From Rufibacter roseolus (GTDB lineage Bacteria > Bacteroidota > Bacteroidia > Cytophagales > Hymenobacteraceae), in contig NZ_JAFMSU010000002.1 in the NCBI RefSeq assembly GCF_017916365.1, positions 496,001-560,000 on the forward strand: a stretch of DNA of 64,000 bases. The letters run 5' to 3'. A program made the translations under genes and the position numbers. The stretch's first letter is position 1; each line of letters starts with the position of its first letter. A model generated the notes under the pieces. It saw nothing but the letters and a program-made list of their open reading frames with translations. It ran no database searches and was not told the origin of the DNA. This document shows, piece by piece, positions 20,577-34,701 of this stretch.

Positions 20577-20770
20577 ACACAGAAGCAAAATTGGGTTAAA
20601 CAGCAATCTGGAGGACCGTTACAACACTGCTGCCAGCCCTGGAAAAGAAGACTGCCCGTTTATACGCGTAGGTTCTGTCTTGTTGTTGCCTTACCTGGGG
20701 TACGAAATTTCGCGTGCAGAAGTATGCCTGAAACTTGAAGAAAGGAGGAAAGAGAAAAATAAAAAAAATC

Positions 20771-21224
20771 AGTGAGCCTGTAAGCCGGGTTTTGTCCTCT
20801 GCCCTGGGGCAAATGGCTTATCATTTATCTAGGCCCGTCCTCACGAAGGGGCTCCATCAACCTACCCGCTGACATCGGACGAGCAGCCCTTAGCCTTGCC
20901 CTAAGACAAGGCGCTGTCAGCCTATTTGGTCTTTCAACTCCTGAGGTTTACCCAGCCGGACTAGTCACCTAGCCGCTGGTGCGCTCTTACCGCACCTTTT
21001 CACCCTTACCACCTTTTAATTAAGAATTAAGAATTTAATATTAAGAATGACTCCTAATTCTTAACTCCCCATTCCTGATTAATCGGTGGCGGTACTTTTC
21101 TGTGGCACTGGCTGTCACCTGGCCGTCTCCCGCCAGGTGCCTTCCCGTTAGGAAGCAGGATGCTCTGCGTTGCCCGGACTTTCCTCCCCGCCCGAAGGCG
21201 CAGCGATAAGCCGGCTCACCGATT
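20771..21224 (-). ncRNA. rnpB: RNase P RNA (class A)
   Basis: The catalytic RNA of RNase P, which matures tRNA 5' ends. On the minus strand it starts with GGTGAGCC and ends with GGCTCACT, which pair as P1. The universal segment GAGGAAAGTCCGGGC is seen near 21172-21187 and the matching 3' segment ACAAAACCCGGCTTAC at 20781-20796, which together form P4 and its surroundings. The ends are set from P1 and are accurate to a few bases. An AT-rich array of about 66 bases (21018-21083) extends one peripheral hairpin between CCACC and GGTGG arms. Confidence 0.92.
21018..21083. repeat. Degenerate 7-nt tandem array inside rnpB
   Basis: Starting at 21018 the sequence parses into heptamers: AATTAAG, AATTAAG, AATTTAA, TATTAAG, AATGACT, CCTAATT, CTTAACT, CCCCATT, CCTGATT. 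The second half is roughly complementary to the first, so it would fold as an extension of a peripheral RNase P hairpin. Confidence 0.5.
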
Positions 21225-25481: not shown

Positions 25482-26423
25482 TTAAAAAAAAAGCGCATGT
25501 GCTTTCCAGCCTTGCCTTCTGTTGTACTCCAGCGCCGGGGCCGGGAATTTGAAGATGGAAAGCACATAGAAGGCGCTTTTCAGGAATTTGCTGCGGGTGG
25601 GGATGGCCTGCCAGTTAAGATCCACGCTCAGGTAATACTGCCGGTACGCTGCCAGGCCGATGGCGCTGTTGGCATCTGCATCATTAAAGACCATTTCCTC
25701 AGCGCCATAACCAATGGCGGGGTTGAGCCATTTGGGGAAGCGGCCTTCCTTGGGCAGAAATTTGGCCAAGTCCACGCTCAACCAGTACGTGTGGCCGTTG
25801 TAGTCTTTCAAGAATTCCTCAGATAGCCCTTTCCCCAGCACGTTAGGGCGCAGGGCGGCGTAGCGGGTGCGGTGAAAAGAGTATTTGGGTATAATCCGGT
25901 TCTCGCCCCAAGCCAGTTGCTGCCCGATGACCAACAGGGAGCCAGCAGCGTTGGCCGCTATATCAGAGATGGAGGCGCCGTACTCGGGTGAGCGGCCATC
26001 AAAGTACTCAATAGGGGTTTGCAGCACAAAACCAAGGGCGCCACCGTACCAGATGGCTTTTTTCTCGGACACACCCGCTTTCAGTAGCAAATCAACGCCT
26101 AACCGACTTTCATGGAAGGCGCCCCAGAGATGGCCGGCTTTGTCCAGTTGTTTCCATTCGCGGGCATCGTTGAACCAGTGAAAGGAGGTGCGGTCTTTTT
26201 CACTGTACCAGGCTTGGTTAAGAAAAGTCAGACCACCAAAGTACAGGGTGGCACCTCCGGCCGAGAGCCAGGGCAGGCGGCGGCTGAACTGGTTGGCTGT
26301 GTCCTGCGGTTCCCCGGTTTCATAGTTGTAGGTAGCCTGCGACCAAACCTTTGAAGGAGAAAAACTCAGGCAGGACAGAAGCAGAAAAAAGAAGAAAGGG
26401 AAGAAGGTTGATCTGGTTAACAC
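25482..26423 (-). CDS. DUF2279 (YfiM-like) exported protein
   Basis: A 313-residue protein with a hydrophobic N-terminal signal (FFPFFFFLLLSCLSFSP). It appears to start at a GTG at 26423, since no ATG precedes the signal. The body matches DUF2279: LSAGGATLYFGGLTFLNQAWYS, LDKAGHLWGAFHESRLG, AIWYGGALGFVLQTPIEYFDG, and GASISDIAANAAGSLL. The conserved His and Asp residues in KAGHL and SDIAAN are typical, but no biochemical function is known; members are predicted outer-membrane or periplasmic proteins. It is transcribed divergently from the trp operon, with about 70 bases between its start and the trp -33 box. Confidence 0.75.
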   Translation of the reverse strand: MLTRSTFFPFFFFLLLSCLSFSPSKVWSQATYNYETGEPQDTANQFSRRLPWLSAGGATLYFGGLTFLNQAWYSEKDRTSFHWFNDAREWKQLDKAGHLWGAFHESRLGVDLLLKAGVSEKKAIWYGGALGFVLQTPIEYFDGRSPEYGASISDIAANAAGSLLVIGQQLAWGENRIIPKYSFHRTRYAALRPNVLGKGLSEEFLKDYNGHTYWLSVDLAKFLPKEGRFPKWLNPAIGYGAEEMVFNDADANSAIGLAAYRQYYLSVDLNWQAIPTRSKFLKSAFYVLSIFKFPAPALEYNRRQGWKAHALFF

Positions 26424-26494: not shown

Positions 26495-26524
26495 TTGCAA
26501 ATGATTTTCTGGCTCCTACATTTG
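26495..26524 (+). promoter_or_regulatory. Promoter of the trp operon
   Basis: TTG (26495-26497), a 19-base spacer and TACATTTG (26517-26524) are a full match to the Bacteroidota consensus. The predicted start lies at about 26528-26530, at or next to the ATG of leader peptide 1 (26529). Confidence 0.75.
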
Positions 26525-26528
26525 CATC

Positions 26529-26582
26529 ATGAACAAGACGCAATTCTCTCATAAAGCCTGGTGGCACACACGTCAAGACTGA
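26529..26582 (+). CDS. trp leader peptide 1 (Trp-Trp)
   Basis: A 17-codon frame reading MNKTQFSHKAWWHTRQD, TGA at 26580-26582. Tandem TGG codons at 26559-26564 sit 19 bases before the antiterminator arm GGGTGAA. The peptide resembles leader peptides of enterobacterial trp operons in having adjacent Trp codons near its end. The ATG lies only five bases after the -7 box, so the mRNA is probably leaderless or nearly so. The stop codon directly abuts the arm that must be masked for termination, as the classical model requires. Confidence 0.85.
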   Translation: MNKTQFSHKAWWHTRQD

Positions 26583-26583
26583 T

Positions 26584-26654
26584 GGGTGAACCGCTTGCTG
26601 TGCAGAGATGCAAATAATGAAAGGCTCGGATTCACCCGGGCCTTTGGTGTTTTA
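26584..26654 (+). promoter_or_regulatory. trp attenuator 1
   Basis: The terminator is AAAGGCTCGG (26620-26629) with CCGGGCCTTT (26636-26645), ten pairs including one G-U, followed by GGTGTTTT. The antiterminator is GGGTGAA-CCG (26584-26593) with CGG-A-TTCACCC (26627-26637), which uses up part of the terminator stem. A ribosome at the leader 1 stop covers GGGTGAA; a ribosome stalled at the Trp codons does not. Confidence 0.85.
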
Positions 26655-26685
26655 AAATCGTTCAGAAGTACAAGAAAGAGCAGAA

Positions 26686-26763
26686 ATGGAAAAAGTGATG
26701 TTTAGCGAAATGATTTGGTGGTGGCACAATCGAGAGATTCGTGAACAGCAGGTTATTGCCTAA
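26686..26763 (+). CDS. trp leader peptide 2 (Trp-Trp-Trp)
   Basis: A 25-codon frame starting MEKVMFSEM, with residues 9-19 reading MIWWWHNREIR, and TAA at 26761-26763. Three consecutive TGG codons occupy 26716-26724, 18 bases before the second antiterminator arm. The stretch WWWHNRE resembles WWHTRQ of leader 1, and the DNA TGGTGGCACA is shared, so the second attenuator may be a duplicate of the first. A purine-rich AAGAAAGAG precedes the ATG, which could help initiation. Confidence 0.85.
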   Translation: MEKVMFSEMIWWWHNREIREQQVIA

Positions 26764-26823
26764 ACTAAACTAGCCCATACTATAAAAGGCTTGCTGTTCA
26801 TCCCAAACGGCAAGCCTTTTTTT
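26743..26823 (+). promoter_or_regulatory. trp attenuator 2
   Basis: The terminator is AAAAGGCTTGC (26784-26794) with GCAAGCCTTTT (26810-26820) and a run of T ending at 26823, ten bases before the trpE ATG. The antiterminator is GAACAGCA (26743-26750), within the last leader 2 codons, exactly complementary to TGCTGTTC (26792-26799). No promoter is visible between the two attenuators, so they should act in series. Confidence 0.85.
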
Positions 26824-26832
26824 ATACTTTTT

Positions 26833-28245
26833 ATGAAAACGTACACCCTACAAACGCAATACCGTCAACTCCTCGCCGACACCGTGACGCCGGTGGGCAT
26901 TTACCTGCAACTGCGTGACAAGTACCGCAACTGCCTTTTGCTGGAAAGCTCTGACTACCACGGCCACGAGAATAGCTTCACCTACATCTGCTGCGAGCCC
27001 ATCGCAGAGTTCAGACTCAAGGACAGCTTGCTGCGCCGCTCTTACCCGGACGGATCGGTAGAGGAGGAGGTACTGGCCAACAAGCGTGATGCGGTAGGAT
27101 TGCTGCAAACCTACTGCGAGTTGTTCAAGACCGAGGCCGGGCCTTTCGGGTTTATCCAGAACGGGTTGTTCGGGTATATGTCTTTTGAGGCAGTGCAGTA
27201 TTATGAAACGCTGGACCTGCGCCAGAAAGAAACCGCCCACCCGGAGCTGCCCGAGATCCTCTACCAAGCCTTCCGCTTCGTCATCGCCATTGACCATTTC
27301 AAAAACGAGTTGTACATTTTTGAGCACTTTTTTGGAAATGAGCCCCAAAACGATGGCCTGGATGAGTTGGAGACTCACATCCGGAACAAGAACTTCCCTA
27401 TGTTTCACTTTTCCCTCTCCGGAGAGGAAAGCACAAACCAAACCGATGAGGAGTTCCTGCGCGTGATTGAGGAAGGCAAGCGCCACTGCCACCTGGGCAA
27501 CGTGTTCCAGATTGTGCTCTCCAGAAGATTCTCCCAGTCTTTCCAGGGCGATGAGTTCAACGTGTACCGCGCCCTGCGCTCCATCAACCCGTCGCCTTAT
27601 TTGTTTTATTTCGATTACGGCAACTTCAAGATCTTCGGGTCTTCGCCTGAGGCGCAGCTCACCATCAAGAACGACGTGGCCACCATTTACCCCATCGCTG
27701 GCACGTTCAAGCGCACCGGCAACGATGCCGCCGATGCCGAACTGGCCCAGAAACTCTACGATGATCCCAAAGAGAACTCAGAACACGTGATGCTGGTAGA
27801 CCTGGCCCGCAATGACCTCAGCCGCCACGGCGACAACGTGAAAGTGGAGGTTTTCAAAGAGGTGCAGTACTACTCGCACGTGATCCACCTGGTGTCCAAA
27901 GTAACCGCCAGCCTGCCGCAGGCGCACGGCTCGGTGCAGATGGTGGCAGATACTTTCCCGGCCGGGACCTTGTCCGGCGCGCCCAAACACCGCGCTTTAA
28001 CCCTGATTGATGAACTTGAGCCCACCGGCCGGGGTTATTACGGCGGATGCATCGGGTACCTGGGTTTCGGGGGCGATTTCAACCACGCCATCATGATTCG
28101 CTCGTTCCTGAGCGTACAGAACAAACTGCATTTCCAGGCAGGGGCCGGGGTAGTGGCCAAATCGGATACCCGCAGCGAATTGAACGAGGTGCACCACAAA
28201 CTGGCCGCTCTGCGCAAAGCCTTGGAGAAAGCCGCCAGCATTTAA
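26833..28245 (+). CDS. trpE: Anthranilate synthase component I
   Basis: A 470-residue enzyme that makes anthranilate from chorismate with ammonia supplied by TrpG. The ATG at 26833 is chosen because the open frame upstream lies inside attenuator 2. The feedback-site motif LLESS (residues 36-40), where Trp binds in this family, is followed by chorismate-domain motifs FGSSPEAQL, YPIAGTFKRTG, DLARNDL, VHLVSKV, and FPAGTLSGAPKHRAL. It is the first structural gene of trpEGDCFBA. Control is thus double: predicted allosteric inhibition through LLESS and two attenuators in series. A 36-nt repeat separates it from trpG. Confidence 0.95.
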   Translation: MKTYTLQTQYRQLLADTVTPVGIYLQLRDKYRNCLLLESSDYHGHENSFTYICCEPIAEFRLKDSLLRRSYPDGSVEEEVLANKRDAVGLLQTYCELFKTEAGPFGFIQNGLFGYMSFEAVQYYETLDLRQKETAHPELPEILYQAFRFVIAIDHFKNELYIFEHFFGNEPQNDGLDELETHIRNKNFPMFHFSLSGEESTNQTDEEFLRVIEEGKRHCHLGNVFQIVLSRRFSQSFQGDEFNVYRALRSINPSPYLFYFDYGNFKIFGSSPEAQLTIKNDVATIYPIAGTFKRTGNDAADAELAQKLYDDPKENSEHVMLVDLARNDLSRHGDNVKVEVFKEVQYYSHVIHLVSKVTASLPQAHGSVQMVADTFPAGTLSGAPKHRALTLIDELEPTGRGYYGGCIGYLGFGGDFNHAIMIRSFLSVQNKLHFQAGAGVVAKSDTRSELNEVHHKLAALRKALEKAASI

Positions 28246-28340: not shown

Positions 28341-28964
28341 ATGAAAATCCTTGTCTTAGATAACTACGATTCCTTCACCTACAACCTGGTGCAACTGCTG
28401 CGCGAGCTGGGCTACGGAAACCAACTGGAAGTGTACCGCAACGATCAGATCAGCCTGGAAGAGGTAGAGAAATACGATGTGATTCTGCTCTCTCCAGGTC
28501 CGGGTGTGCCCAACGAGGCGGGCATCATGCCGGCGCTTCTGAAGAAATACGCGCCCACCAAGCGCATCATGGGCGTTTGCCTGGGCCACCAGGCCATCGC
28601 CGAGGCCTTCGGGGCGGAGTTATCTAACCTCAAGGAGGTGTTCCACGGCGTTTCTTCCACCTTGCGGGTAGTGAACAACCAAGAGCCTATGTTTAAGGAG
28701 TTGCCATCCACCTTCAACGTGGCCCGATATCATTCCTGGACCGTGGTGCCCGAGTCGGTACCCACTGAGCTAAAAATCACGGCGGTGGACGAAACCGGGG
28801 AAGTGCTGGCCCTACGCCACAGCAAGTACGATGTGTGCGGCGTGCAGTTCCACCCAGAGTCCATCCTGACTGATTTTGGCCGGGAGATGCTGCAGAACTG
28901 GTTGCAGAACCCCACCAAGCGCGTAAACCAATGGACTACCTTTGCTGCTTCCCTTGCCCTATGA
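28341..28964 (+). CDS. trpG: Anthranilate synthase component II (glutamine amidotransferase)
   Basis: A 207-residue class I glutamine amidotransferase that supplies ammonia to TrpE. The triad is visible: Cys80 in MGVCLGHQAIAEAFG, and His and Glu in CGVQFHPESIL; the oxyanion segment LSPGPGVPNEAG is also typical. The length is that of a stand-alone TrpG/PabA. Its stop overlaps the trpD start by four bases (ATGA at 28961-28964), so the two are translationally coupled. It may also serve aminodeoxychorismate synthase, as TrpG does in some bacteria; nothing here decides that. Confidence 0.95.
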   Translation: MKILVLDNYDSFTYNLVQLLRELGYGNQLEVYRNDQISLEEVEKYDVILLSPGPGVPNEAGIMPALLKKYAPTKRIMGVCLGHQAIAEAFGAELSNLKEVFHGVSSTLRVVNNQEPMFKELPSTFNVARYHSWTVVPESVPTELKITAVDETGEVLALRHSKYDVCGVQFHPESILTDFGREMLQNWLQNPTKRVNQWTTFAASLAL

Positions 28965-29947
28965 AACAGGTACTGCAGCAACTGATTGACCACAAAGCGC
29001 TCTCCAAGGAAACCGCGAAACAGGTTCTGCTCAACATCGGGCGGGGCCAGTACAACAGCAGCCAGATGGCCGCTTTCATGACCGTGTACCTCATGCGCAA
29101 CATCACGGTGCACGAGCTGGAGGGATTCCGGGAGGCCATGCTGGAACTCTGCCTGCTCCCCGAGCTGGGCACCGACCAGGTCATAGACCTCTGCGGCACC
29201 GGCGGCGACGGCAAAGACACGTTCAACATCTCCACGCTGGCTTCTTTTGTGGTGGCCGGCGCGGGGTACAAGGTAGCCAAACACGGCAACACCGGCGTAT
29301 CTTCCATCTGCGGGTCCTCCAATGTGATGGCGCACCTGGGCTACAACTTCACCAATGACAGCACGGCCTTGCGCACCAAACTGGAGGCCGCTAACATCTG
29401 CTTTCTGCACGCGCCGCTCTTTCACCCGGCCATGAAGGAAGTGGCCCCCATCAGAAAAGAACTGGGCGTAAAGACGTTCTTCAACATGCTGGGACCCATG
29501 ATCAACCCGGCCAAACCGCATTTCCAGATGGTAGGGGTATTCAGCCTGGAATTGTTGCGCCTCTACACGTACCTTTACCAGGGGACCGGCAAACGCTTCG
29601 TGTTGCTGCACGCCCTGGACGGTTACGATGAGGTGTCGCTCACGGGCCCTTTCAAGATGGTGACGCCGCAGGGCGAGCAGATTCTGCAGCCCTCGGACCT
29701 GGGCCTTCCTACTTACCAGGAAAGCGACCTGGCCGGCGGCAACTCCATTGAAGAATCGGCGGCGATCTTCATGAACGTGCTGGAAGGTCGCGGCACCCAG
29801 GCCCAGCAAGACGCCGTGGTAGCGAACGCCGGACTGGGCATTTTCTGCGCCGATGAGCGCTTGACGCTGCCCGAATCCATTCAGAAGGCCCGTCAGTCGC
29901 TCAACAATGGGCAGGCCCTTAAAACATTACAGACGCTTTTAGCTTAA
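28961..29947 (+). CDS. trpD: Anthranilate phosphoribosyltransferase
   Basis: A 328-residue enzyme joining anthranilate and phosphoribosyl pyrophosphate. The ATG at 28961 overlaps the trpG stop. Motifs include DLCGTGGDGKDTFNIST (PRPP loop), KHGNTGVSSICGSSN, and FFNMLGPMINPA. The usual bacterial length is about 330-340 residues, so the protein is complete. trpC follows eight bases after the stop. Confidence 0.95.
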   Translation: MKQVLQQLIDHKALSKETAKQVLLNIGRGQYNSSQMAAFMTVYLMRNITVHELEGFREAMLELCLLPELGTDQVIDLCGTGGDGKDTFNISTLASFVVAGAGYKVAKHGNTGVSSICGSSNVMAHLGYNFTNDSTALRTKLEAANICFLHAPLFHPAMKEVAPIRKELGVKTFFNMLGPMINPAKPHFQMVGVFSLELLRLYTYLYQGTGKRFVLLHALDGYDEVSLTGPFKMVTPQGEQILQPSDLGLPTYQESDLAGGNSIEESAAIFMNVLEGRGTQAQQDAVVANAGLGIFCADERLTLPESIQKARQSLNNGQALKTLQTLLA

Positions 29948-29955
29948 CACCTTAT

Positions 29956-30783
29956 ATGTCCTTGACCATCCTTGACAAAATCATTGCCCATAAGCGGCAG
30001 GAAGTAGCAGATCGCAAAAGCCTGGTGCCTACAGCGGCGTTGGAACGCAGCATTTATTTCCCCTCGCAGCCGGTATCGCTCCGCAAGTACGTACAGCGCC
30101 CAGATCTGAGCGGGATAATTGCCGAGTTCAAGCGCAAATCGCCCTCCAAGGGAACCATCAACGCCTACGCGCCTGTAGAGCGTACCTCTATCGGGTACAT
30201 GCAGGCTGGCGCCTCGGCCTTGTCCATCCTCACCGACACCAACTTCTTTGGGGGCAAGAACGAAGACCTCACCACGGCCCGCAAATTCAATTTCTGCCCC
30301 ATCCTGCGCAAAGATTTTGTGGTGGAGGAGTACCAGATCCTGGAGGCCAAGTCCATCGGGGCCGATGCTATTCTGCTCATCGCGGCGGTCTTGACGAAAG
30401 AGGAGGTAAGCCAGTTGGCGCAGTTCGCCCACTCATTGGGTCTGGAGGTGCTGCTGGAGGTGCATACCCGCGAGGAAATGGAGCGCACCATCACCCCGCA
30501 TGTGGACCTGGTGGGCGTGAACAACCGCAATCTGCATGATTTCTCCGTGAGCCTGCAGACGTCCTTTGACCTGGCCCAGCACATCCCCAACGAGTTTGTG
30601 AAGGTGTCTGAGAGCGGCCTGAGCGAGGCCAGCAGCGTGATGGAGCTTCGGCAGTACGGCTACGAAGGTTTTCTAATGGGAGAGACCTTCATGCGCCAGA
30701 GCCGCCCAGAGAAAGCCTGCGCCGCATTTGTGGAGGAGTTAAAGAAACTGCACGTGGTAAGCCAGCTAGCTTTCAAAGGGTAA
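29956..30783 (+). CDS. trpC: Indole-3-glycerol-phosphate synthase
   Basis: A 275-residue (beta/alpha)8 enzyme closing the indole ring. Conserved parts are IIAEFKRKSPSKG (catalytic Lys), ASALSILTDTNFFGG, PILRKDFVVEEYQI (catalytic Lys), EVLLEVHTREEME, VGVNNRNLHDF and VKVSESGL. It is not fused to TrpF, which is encoded separately 143 bases downstream after a palindromic repeat. The length is slightly above the usual 255-270 residues. Confidence 0.95.
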   Translation: MSLTILDKIIAHKRQEVADRKSLVPTAALERSIYFPSQPVSLRKYVQRPDLSGIIAEFKRKSPSKGTINAYAPVERTSIGYMQAGASALSILTDTNFFGGKNEDLTTARKFNFCPILRKDFVVEEYQILEAKSIGADAILLIAAVLTKEEVSQLAQFAHSLGLEVLLEVHTREEMERTITPHVDLVGVNNRNLHDFSVSLQTSFDLAQHIPNEFVKVSESGLSEASSVMELRQYGYEGFLMGETFMRQSRPEKACAAFVEELKKLHVVSQLAFKG

Positions 30784-30820
30784 GCAGCTTATATAAGTAT
30801 CCAGCTTGTCCTGATGCTCC

Positions 30821-30855
30821 GTTTTAAGCTCGATTTTAGAAAACAGGACTGAAAC
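30821..30855. repeat. 36-nt palindromic repeat, copy 12 (inside trp operon)
   Basis: GTTTTAAGCTCGATTTT then AGAAAACAGGACTGAAAC, in the trpC-trpF gap. Both halves fit but the stem has several mismatches. Confidence 0.65.
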
Positions 30856-30926
30856 GATTCGCATTTAAAGAGAAAGATAATCACAGTGGCACAGCTTCAA
30901 AGCCAAACAAAACCAGACAGAACAGC

Positions 30927-31562
30927 ATGCCAGATTACAACCTGAAGATAAAAGTCTGCGGCATGAAGTACAGTGAGAACATCCAGGAACTCATGGTGCT
31001 CCAGCCAGATTATGTGGGGTTTATCTTCTATGAAAAATCGCCCCGCTATATCTCTACCCAGTGGGCCGTATTCGCCTCGGTTTTCCCGAAGGAGACCAAA
31101 AAGGTGGGTGTGTTTGTGGATGAGGAACCTGGGGGCATTTTGCAGAAAATGACGGAGCTGGGGCTGGACATGGTGCAGTTGCACGGCCACGAGTCACCCC
31201 AGGTGTGCCATGAACTCCGGGACGCGGGCCTTTACGTAATGAAAGCCTTCCGGGTGGGTGCTGATTTTGATTTCGGGCAACTGAAGCCCTACGCCGGCAC
31301 CTGCGACTATTTTCTATTCGATGCCAGCGGTGCCAACCCCGGGGGCAACGGCGTGCGGTTCAACTGGGACCTGCTGCAAAACTACCATCTGGAGGTTCCT
31401 TTCTTTCTGAGCGGAGGCATTGACCTGGAGCACATAGAGGAGATTAAAGCGCTGAACCTGCCCCGGTTGCACGGCCTGGATTTGAACAGCAAATTCGAAA
31501 TTCAGCCAGGCCTGAAGGACATCAACCGGTTGAAAGAGTTTATCGAAGGAGTGAAAGCATAG
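30927..31562 (+). CDS. trpF: Phosphoribosylanthranilate isomerase
   Basis: A 211-residue (beta/alpha)8 isomerase with the catalytic Cys in KIKVCGMKYS and the general-acid Asp in FLFDASGANPGGNGVRFNW. KKVGVFVDEEPGG and FFLSGGIDLEHIEE are further family segments, and LHGLDLNSKFEIQPG ends the barrel. It lies alone between two short gaps in the trp operon, in the same direction as its neighbours. Confidence 0.93.
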   Translation: MPDYNLKIKVCGMKYSENIQELMVLQPDYVGFIFYEKSPRYISTQWAVFASVFPKETKKVGVFVDEEPGGILQKMTELGLDMVQLHGHESPQVCHELRDAGLYVMKAFRVGADFDFGQLKPYAGTCDYFLFDASGANPGGNGVRFNWDLLQNYHLEVPFFLSGGIDLEHIEEIKALNLPRLHGLDLNSKFEIQPGLKDINRLKEFIEGVKA

Positions 31563-31631
31563 TCATTATTTTATAAGATGTTACGGGAGCGAAAGTCATG
31601 TGCTAAGCTTCCTGATTAATACAAAAGAGGA

Positions 31632-32828
31632 ATGGAATACGGAGTAAATGAACGCGGCTATTATGGCCAATTTGGCGGGGCTTTCATCCCGGAGATGCTG
31701 TACCCCAACGTAGAGGAACTGCGCGAGAAGTACCTGTCCATCATGGCGGAGCCGGAGTTCCAGCAGGAGCTGCAGGAGCTGCTCCGTGATTATGTGGGTC
31801 GGCCCACGCCGCTGTACCACGCCAAGCGCCTCTCAGAACGGTACAACACCAAAATCTACCTCAAGCGTGAGGACCTGAACCATACCGGTGCCCACAAGAT
31901 CAACAACACCGTGGGGCAGATTCTGCTGGCTAAACGCCTGGGCAAAAAGCGCATCATCGCGGAGACCGGGGCGGGGCAGCACGGGGTGGCCACGGCTACC
32001 GTTTGCGCGCTAGCCGGGCTGGAGTGCATTGTGTACATGGGCAAGATTGATACGGAGCGGCAGCGGCCTAACGTGGAAAAAATGCGCCTGCTGGGTGCCA
32101 CTGTGGTGCCGGTGACTTCCGGTTCCCAGACCCTGAAAGACGCCACCAATGAGGCCATCCGCGACTGGATCAACCACCCCGAGGACACGCACTACATCAT
32201 CGGCTCGGTAGTAGGTCCGCACCCATACCCGGACATGGTGGCCCGTTTCCAGTCCGTTATTTCAGAAGAGATCAGAAAACAGCTCCTGGAGAAGGAGGGA
32301 CGCGAATTGCCCGATTACGTGGTGGCCTGTGTGGGAGGTGGCTCTAATGCCGCTGGTGCTTTCTACCACTTCCTGAATGAGCCTGAAGTGAAACTGGTTG
32401 CCGTTGAGGCGGCTGGATTGGGGGTGGATTCCGGCCATTCGGCCGCTACCTCGGTGCTGGGTAAAACCGGCATCATCCACGGCAGCAAAACCCTGCTCAT
32501 GCAAACCGAAGACGGCCAAATCACCGAACCGTATTCAATCTCCGCAGGATTGGATTACCCTGGCGTAGGTCCGCAGCACGCGCATTTGGCCCAGACAGGC
32601 CGCGCCCGATTCATCGCCATCACCGATGCCGATGCCATGGAAGCCCTTCGTGAGTTAAGCCGCCTGGAAGGTATTATTCCAGCCATTGAAAGCTCGCACG
32701 CGCTGGCAGCCCTCAAAGAAATCAACGCCGGTCCCGATGACGTGGTGGTGCTGAACCTCTCCGGCCGCGGCGACAAAGACCTTAACACCATTCTTACTTA
32801 TTTTGAACAACAAGATGGCCCAAAATAG
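31632..32828 (+). CDS. trpB: Tryptophan synthase beta subunit
   Basis: A 398-residue PLP enzyme condensing indole and serine. The Schiff-base Lys lies in [13 protein letters not shown]; the phosphate-binding loop is [29 protein letters not shown] and [17 protein letters not shown] are also characteristic. It belongs to the common TrpB1 type that pairs with TrpA. Its last 14 bases overlap the trpA start at 32815, so the two subunits are translationally coupled. Confidence 0.95.
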
Positions 32829-33591
32829 ACTCACGCGCCTGTTCCAGGAGAAAAGCGGAAATCTACTCAACATTTACTTCACTGCCGGTTACCCTAAACT
32901 GGAAGACACGGTCACCATTCTGGAGGAACTGGAAGCCGCCGGCGCAGACCTGGTGGAGATAGGAATGCCTTTCTCAGACCCACTCGCCGATGGCCCTACT
33001 ATTCAGGCTAGCAACATGGTGGCCCTGGAGAACGGCATGTCCATCAAAACTCTGCTGCAGCAACTAGAGGGAGTAAGAGAGAATGTCACATTACCCATTA
33101 TTCTCATGGGCTACCTGAACCCAGTGATGCAGTACGGCTTTGAGCGCTTCTGCGAAGACGCCGCGAGAGTAGGCGTAGACGGCCTGATCCTGCCAGACCT
33201 GCCTTTCGCCGAGTACGAGGAAGAATACAAGCCTATCCTGGAGAAACACGGCCTCAGCCTGATCTTCCTGATCACTCCGCAGACTTCCGAGGCCCGCATC
33301 CGGCAGATCGACAAACTTACCAATTCCTTCATCTACATGGTGTCTAGCGCCAGCACCACGGGTAGCCAGGTTCAGGCCTCAGATTCACAGCAGGCGTATT
33401 TCTCCAAAGTGAAGAACCTCGGTCTGAAGAACCCGCTGCTCATTGGGTTCGGGATCAGCGACAAGCCTTCGTTTGAAATGGCCTGTTTATCGGCGCACGG
33501 CGCCATCATCGGCAGCGCCTTCATCAAAGCCCTGCAACAGCCTGAGGAAGTGCGCCAAAACGTAAGATCATTCCTGAAAACGCTACGCTAA
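32815..33591 (+). CDS. trpA: Tryptophan synthase alpha subunit
   Basis: A 258-residue (beta/alpha)8 enzyme cleaving indole-3-glycerol phosphate. The ATG at 32815 is preferred to a TTG at 32803. Catalytic Glu and Asp lie in [19 protein letters not shown] and [28 protein letters not shown] and [12 protein letters not shown] are the phosphate-binding segments. It overlaps trpB by 14 bases. A self-complementary 7-nt-type array fills the gap to the DAHP synthase gene. Confidence 0.95.
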
Positions 33592-33687: not shown

Positions 33688-34701
33688 ATGCTTATTCAGC
33701 TACAACAAGATATACGTCCTGAGGACAAGGCGGCCATTGTGAACAAGGCCAAAGAGTTGAAGTACAAGACCACCGAGGTGGTGACCCAGGCAGGACATTA
33801 CCTGGTGGGCACTGGCAAAGCCGAGTTTGACGTTCGCGCCATCGGGAACCTGCCGGGCATCAAAGACATCCACATCGTCTCTGATGATTATCGGCTGGTT
33901 TCCAGAAAATGGAAAGTAAACCCCACGGTCATTGACTTCGGCGATGGCCTGACCGTGCAGGAGGGGGACCTGACCATCATGGCCGGGCCGTGCTCTATTG
34001 AGAACGAGGACCAGATAGAGAAAACCATTCAGCACCTGGTGGCCAACAACGTGCGCTTCATGCGGGGCGGCGTGTTCAAGCCCCGTTCCTCGCCGTATTC
34101 TTTCCGCGGTCTGGGGCTGGAAGGCCTGAAGCTGTTCTACGACATGTGCCGCGCGCACGGGATCAAGATTGTGACCGAGGTGATGCAGGTGTCGCAGATC
34201 GCGCCTATGGAGCCTTACACCGATGTTTTCCAGGTGGGCGCCCGTAATACACAGAACTTTAATCTGCTGGATGAACTGGGCAAAGTAGACAAACCCGTTC
34301 TGCTCAAGCGCGGCATCTCAGGCACCATTGATGAGCTGCTGTATTCGGCAGAATACATCTTCTCGGGCGGAAACGAAAAGCTGATGCTCTGCGAGCGCGG
34401 TATCCGGACCTACGAAACCGCCAGCCGCAACACCTTGGACCTGAACGCCATTCCCATCCTGAAGGAGAAAACCCACCTGCCGGTGATTGTGGACCCCTCG
34501 CACGGGATTGGCATTCGGGAGTACGTGGAGCCGATGGCCCTGGCCGCGATCATGGCCGGCGCCGATGGCATCATCTACGAAACCCACGAAAAGCCGGAGG
34601 AAGCCGCTTCAGACGGAGCCCAGACCCTGAGCTTCACCGAGTCTGAACGCCTGATCAGGAAAATGCGGAAGACCTTTGAGCTGCGGAAAGAGCTGGTGTA
34701 A
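33688..34701 (+). CDS. aroF: 3-deoxy-7-phosphoheptulonate synthase (type I-beta with N-terminal regulatory domain)
   Basis: A 337-residue DAHP synthase. Residues 1-68 form the ferredoxin-like regulatory domain known from Thermotoga-type enzymes (MLIQLQQDIRPEDKAAI, GIKDIHIVSDDYRLVSRK). The barrel follows: LTIMAGPCSIENEDQ, RFMRGGVFKPRSSPYSFRGL, FQVGARNTQNF, LLKRGISGTIDE, VIVDPSHGIGIREYVEP and GADGIIYETHEKPEEAASDG. It is the last gene of the Trp operon, so first-step flux can rise with Trp demand, separately from the DAHP synthase/chorismate mutase in the Phe operon. It lacks a chorismate mutase domain. Confidence 0.93.
   Translation: MLIQLQQDIRPEDKAAIVNKAKELKYKTTEVVTQAGHYLVGTGKAEFDVRAIGNLPGIKDIHIVSDDYRLVSRKWKVNPTVIDFGDGLTVQEGDLTIMAGPCSIENEDQIEKTIQHLVANNVRFMRGGVFKPRSSPYSFRGLGLEGLKLFYDMCRAHGIKIVTEVMQVSQIAPMEPYTDVFQVGARNTQNFNLLDELGKVDKPVLLKRGISGTIDELLYSAEYIFSGGNEKLMLCERGIRTYETASRNTLDLNAIPILKEKTHLPVIVDPSHGIGIREYVEPMALAAIMAGADGIIYETHEKPEEAASDGAQTLSFTESERLIRKMRKTFELRKELV

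Follow-up and report, generated by a model that had tools for sequence, protein, structure and literature searches.

In its textbook form, attenuation of a trp operon involves one leader and one switch. The E. coli trpL attenuator operates by alternation between protector, antiterminator and terminator pairings, and its leader peptide contains two adjacent Trp codons. An outline of E. coli trp attenuation logic is available (PMC3641672). The preliminary description of the locus studied here took the enterobacterial trp operon as its comparator; that operon remains relevant, but the proper comparator is the Bacteroidota trp leader and not the enterobacterial system alone. This Bacteroid-trp leader RNA is catalogued as Rfam RF01692 (Weinberg et al. 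2010, PMC2864571), and strong clues to leader-peptide attenuation before amino-acid operons have been described in F. psychrophilum (PMC9723704). With respect to switches in series, Salmonella mgtCBR possesses tandem attenuators that sense ATP and proline and operate without intrinsic terminators (Lee and Groisman 2012, PMC3641672), and B. clausii metE is cited in the same paper as bearing tandem riboswitches for SAM and B12. In the open-access literature, mgtCBR was the only case of tandem leader-peptide attenuators found, and no report was found there of two serial leader attenuators for a single amino acid.

The window, a stretch of 64,000 nucleotides from Rufibacter roseolus, contains a locus at which, in all probability, two ribosome-mediated trp attenuators of the Bacteroidota type act in series on one transcript. 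The plus strand carries, in order, a promoter, leader 1 and its hairpin, leader 2 and its hairpin, trpEGDCFBA, and a DAHP synthase gene (Table 1). The last of these is probably, but not certainly, part of the trp operon. Its trpE shares 93% identity with the R. latericius counterpart and 89% with the one in R. immobilis. Beside the trp promoter lies a divergent ORF of 313 aa (25482-26423, minus strand) with no NCBIfam match.

Table 1. Features of the tandem trp leader and the genes downstream (window coordinates)
Feature	Position	Strand	Basis
Promoter: TTG 26495-26497, 19 nt spacer, TACATTTG 26517-26524	26495..26524	+	sequence, genus alignment
Leader peptide 1, MNKTQFSHKAWWHTRQD then stop; predicted leaderless	26529..26582	+	WWH and stop distance invariant, 15/15
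Protector hairpin 1 (1:2), CAC-a-CGUCA/UGAUG-g-GUG	26567..26588	+	folding
Antiterminator 1 (2:3), 26584-26593 with 26627-26629 and 26631-26637	26584..26637	+	folding
Terminator 1 (3:4), stem 26620-26645, interrupted U tract, borderline index	26620..26653	+	
Leader peptide 2, MEKVMFSEMIWWWHNREIREQQVIA then stop	26686..26763	+	sequence, genus alignment
Protector hairpin 2 (1:2), CACAAUC/GAUU-c-GUG	26725..26743	+	folding, compensatory changes
Antiterminator 2 (2:3), 26741-26752 with 26789-26800	26741..26800	+	folding; order-wide covariation of homologous helix
Terminator 2 (3:4), 15-bp stem 26784-26820 and U tract	26784..26826	+	
trpE, first gene of the regulated operon	26833..28245	+	
trpG, trpD, trpC, trpF, trpB, trpA	28341..33591	+	
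DAHP synthase gene, 3' of trpA, same strand	33688..34701	+	

A trpE match was present in 15 of 16 genomes of the genus, and all genus counts refer to these 15. Both elements, with their leaders, arms and hairpins, are kept in every one of them, which bears out the expectation in the preliminary description that relatives would not lack the two leaders; both are also found in two named Rufibacter loci, possibly among the 15. The core of leader 1 is invariably AWWH, and its last Trp codon is followed by the stop at a distance of exactly 15 nt in all 15 genomes. In element 1 the minimum free energy (MFE) fold is a protector hairpin at the arm in 15/15, with 95% of cells paired, and mean column identity over leader 1, protector, arm and hairpin is 84%. 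A further pairing, between GCUUGCUGU of element 1 and the arm of element 2, was dropped as it is absent in loci L094 and L096.

The core of leader 2 is likewise constant ([C/Y/W]WWH, 15/15), although the third position is Cys or Tyr in 13 genomes, with the consequence that both leaders of these genomes have two Trp codons. Only the window species and its sister genome G002 have acquired a third (TGT to TGG). The proposed contrast between two and three Trp codons thus holds for these two species and not as a generality, and a difference in sensitivity based upon it is not a general property of the pair. The same two species differ from the other 13 by a 1-nt deletion in leader 2, which shifts the stop downstream and lengthens the peptide. 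The preliminary description placed each antiterminator arm where a ribosome at the leader stop would cover it; for leader 2, the stop falls on the arm or directly next to it in 13 of the 15 relatives, but in the window and in G002 it lies 8 nt beyond. The two changes (window 26716-26763, and locus L083) leave protector hairpin 2 in place. Within the genus, compensatory changes occur at 4 of the 7 pairs of protector 2; antiterminator 2 shows no covariation on the genus alignment alone, as it is too conserved there.

The two terminators claimed for the locus are of unequal quality. As an intrinsic terminator, terminator 2 is strong, with an index of 31.6 in the window, a genus median of 28.8 and a value of 37.4 in other species. 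The U tract of terminator 1 is broken (UUUGGUGUUUU), and its index is near zero, at -1.9 in the window, with a genus median of -0.4 and a range of -13 to 11. The index approximates the d'Aubenton-Carafa score and was calibrated with E. coli. Since terminator 1 is borderline by this U-tract index, the first gate may be leaky in the genus. The U tracts of terminator 1 appear intact in tandem lineages outside the genus.

The competing folds were compared over both elements of all genus genomes. A protector hairpin at the arm is the MFE fold in 30/30 elements, and in the wider family 53 of 79 other elements fold better at this site than shuffled sequences (p < 0.1). In most copies the invariant His codon, or the codon and a half after it, pairs with the arm GUG; this pairing of CAC with GUG offers a reason why WWH is kept, and not WW alone. 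When the 3' arm of the terminator has not yet been made, the antiterminator is the MFE structure in 30/30 elements; its energy of about -15 to -27 kcal/mol is close to that of the terminators (-15 to -24 kcal/mol). Across the order, the antiterminator helix scores 0.171 for covariation, against 0.074 in shuffles (0/500) and at most 0.088 when slid, and the helix was absent from the covariance model. Pairing of the terminator holds in 98.7% of cells order-wide. The median distance from the last Trp codon to the start of the antiterminator arm is 19 nt (117 elements), a gap not noted previously, which puts the arm just outside the edge of a ribosome stalled at the Trp codons. The features of an attenuator, namely an ORF with codons for the pathway product, mutually exclusive antiterminator and terminator, and a protector pairing, are all present in both elements; an intrinsic terminator with a U tract is found in element 2 and is borderline in element 1 throughout the genus.

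These folds suggest how each element would work. When charged tRNA-Trp is scarce, a ribosome stalled on the Trp codons would break the protector hairpin, and the freed arm, GGGUGAAC or GUGAACAGC, would pair with the terminator's loop and 5' side, allowing RNA polymerase to continue. With ample Trp, the ribosome would reach the stop and cover the arm, allowing the terminator to form; without translation, the protector hairpin would keep the arm, and termination should be favoured as well. The polymerase would thus have to pass one gate, with a predicted leaderless leader and a weak terminator, and then another, with a strong terminator, before entering trpE. Ribosome stalling and termination in vivo are what the anatomy predicts, and a wider or steeper response might follow from the series arrangement.

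Homology was assessed with covariance models. Model R1, constructed from 38 trpE-leader elements, scored the two window elements at 73.7 bits (E 1.4e-16) and 43.5 bits (E 6.9e-9), and they rank first and second among its matches in the 5.5 Mb genome; four further matches, below 34 bits, in the same genome were examined and are plain terminators without a Trp leader. As the training set included two Rufibacter loci, a second model, R2, was built without any Hymenobacteraceae. With R2, element 2 obtained 67.8 bits (E 3e-14), and the score of element 1 was much lower at 29.5 bits (E 5.6e-5); element 2 is the nearer of the two to the single-element consensus. On the evidence as a whole, the original proposal of two complete, ribosome-mediated Trp attenuators in series behind one promoter is supported.

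At gathering thresholds, an Rfam scan of the window returned only RNase P RNA (bacterial class A, 20765-21222, minus strand), and low-scoring matches to Thr_leader, Trp_leader and miRNA families were attributed to chance. Against the 49-bit threshold of RF01692, element 2 scored 22.8 bits and element 1 gave no match, so the window elements are not curated members of that family; the threshold was likewise passed by 0/3 genus loci scanned and 0/6 tandem loci from outside the genus. Flavobacterium loci that align with the window elements do pass it, at 66.8 and 62.9 bits. Both elements share homology with the Bacteroidota trp leaders exemplified by RF01692.

Across the order, R1 found 125 strong sites, 122 of them before trpE, 2 before trpB and 1 at a contig end. 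Loci L172 and L251, from one family, have the same kind of Trp attenuator before a separate trpB, with leaders YWCWH or YWHWH. Single Trp elements occur in the Hymenobacter, Pontibacter-like and Adhaeribacter-like loci examined (genus labels from sequence similarity), and in Adhaeribacter-type relatives an element resembling element 1 is the sole Trp element before trpE. Tandem Trp elements were found outside the genus in Fulvivirga marina, UBA1842, G438, G462, G470 and G493. In these ranked, not random, samples, single elements appear to be the rule outside the genus, and the tandem pairs of distant Cytophagales relatives fall into four groups: Fulvivirga, UBA1842 and two more. The Adhaeribacter-like loci L097-L100 share a short conserved ORF (M-x-YFFFRTNYYWQG, with slight variation) between the single Trp attenuator and trpE, 3' of the former. 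Phe, Tyr and Trp are abundant in this ORF. Among 390 order genomes its DNA pattern is present in 2, only at that place, and the ORF may be a second leader sensing other aromatic amino acids.

The shared WWH core was earlier read as a sign of duplication. The core does not point specifically to one, since WWH is family-wide, WWH or WWWH being present in most single-element relatives, and its CAC is explained by pairing with the arm GUG. In the element tree the genus copies of elements 1 and 2 form separate clades, yet AU tests rejected neither a single clade of both (p 0.35) nor the alternatives; the tree tests thus neither support nor reject a lineage-specific duplication, and the pair may be ancient and shared or may have arisen by duplication more than once.

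The promoter pattern TTG-N19-TA[CT]ATTTG-N4-ATG is found in 15/15 genus genomes. In F. johnsoniae the transcription start lies 4-5 nt from the -7 box (PMC6847099), and on this spacing the predicted start falls at or beside the A of the leader 1 ATG, with leader 1 expected at or beside the 5' end of the RNA. Leader 1 is thus predicted to be leaderless in all 15 genomes, a property absent from the preliminary description, and the 5' context of leader 2, unlike that of leader 1, is normal. Most mRNAs of the phylum are not leaderless: 5' UTRs under 10 nt make up 3.7% of those in B. thetaiotaomicron (PMC7366714), and the figure for F. psychrophilum is 5.5% (PMC9723704). Efficient translation of leader 1 is for this reason an assumption.

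The two elements could in principle lie on separate transcripts from two promoters, each acting as an independent single attenuator. A generic sigma-70 scan does report a site at 26631-26658, but its consensus differs from that of the Bacteroidota sigma factor. Such an intervening promoter, the case that would have made the elements independent in the preliminary description, was looked for: TAnnTTTG is absent between the elements in 15/15 genomes, and there is only a single one-off match to it, in one genome. Two promoters are therefore highly improbable. A different objection is that only element 2 is a working Trp attenuator, element 1 being weak or ancillary, for example a pause site or partial terminator. 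The interrupted U tract, the borderline index of the genus copies and the closer fit of element 2 to the single-element consensus are in keeping with this, but they must be set against the strong genus-wide constraint on element 1, visible in its column identity and in the invariant WWH and stop distance, and against the Adhaeribacter-type relatives, which have a similar element as their only one before trpE. An ancillary element 1 is on this evidence unlikely.

It is also conceivable that leader 1 senses another signal, for instance the state of 70S initiation on a leaderless mRNA, or His, and that the two elements combine different inputs, as those of Salmonella mgtCBR do. The invariant 4-nt gap between the -7 box and the ATG (15/15) predicts a leaderless leader 1 next to a leader 2 of normal context, and His follows the Trp codons in all copies; however, the His codon is accounted for by RNA pairing, and no repeated codon pair other than Trp-Trp is kept. 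We consider a second signal distinctly unlikely. Two Trp attenuators on one transcript thus remain the preferred reading, and such a pair may, as the preliminary description proposed, multiply the regulatory range. More tentatively, and with some doubt, the leaderless leader 1 and weak terminator might form a coarse gate, and the conventional leader 2 and strong terminator a fine one, both responding to the same signal and making the Trp response steeper or wider than a single attenuator could, in an arrangement that is genus-wide and was evolved or retained in several Cytophagales lineages.

A conserved natural pair that reads the same charged tRNA would permit a direct test of serial attenuators with regard to leak, range and threshold, and the predicted leaderless leader 1 would allow a test of whether leaderless uORFs can serve attenuation in Bacteroidota. 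The single- and double-element lineages surveyed provide natural comparisons.

Per element, the switch is of a known kind, the Bacteroid-trp leader, and its mechanism is well supported by comparison. RF01692 RNAs share with the window elements their occurrence in Bacteroidota, their position upstream of trp genes, a Trp-rich leader peptide and the same arm-to-terminator pairing; the window elements differ in scoring under the family's threshold. The 1:2, 2:3, 3:4 logic of E. coli trpL (RF00513) is present here twice, whereas trpL has one element and leader 1 is predicted to be leaderless; at 14.8 bits against a threshold of 41, the window has no sequence membership in that family. As cited in PMC3641672, B. 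clausii metE similarly has a series of two switches, each linked to a terminator, within one transcript, but there two ligands bind the RNA directly, with no leader peptide. Closest in layout, Salmonella mgtCBR carries two leader ORFs and two attenuators in series on one leader mRNA; it responds to two signals without intrinsic terminators, whereas both elements of the present locus appear to read Trp and both have terminator hairpins.
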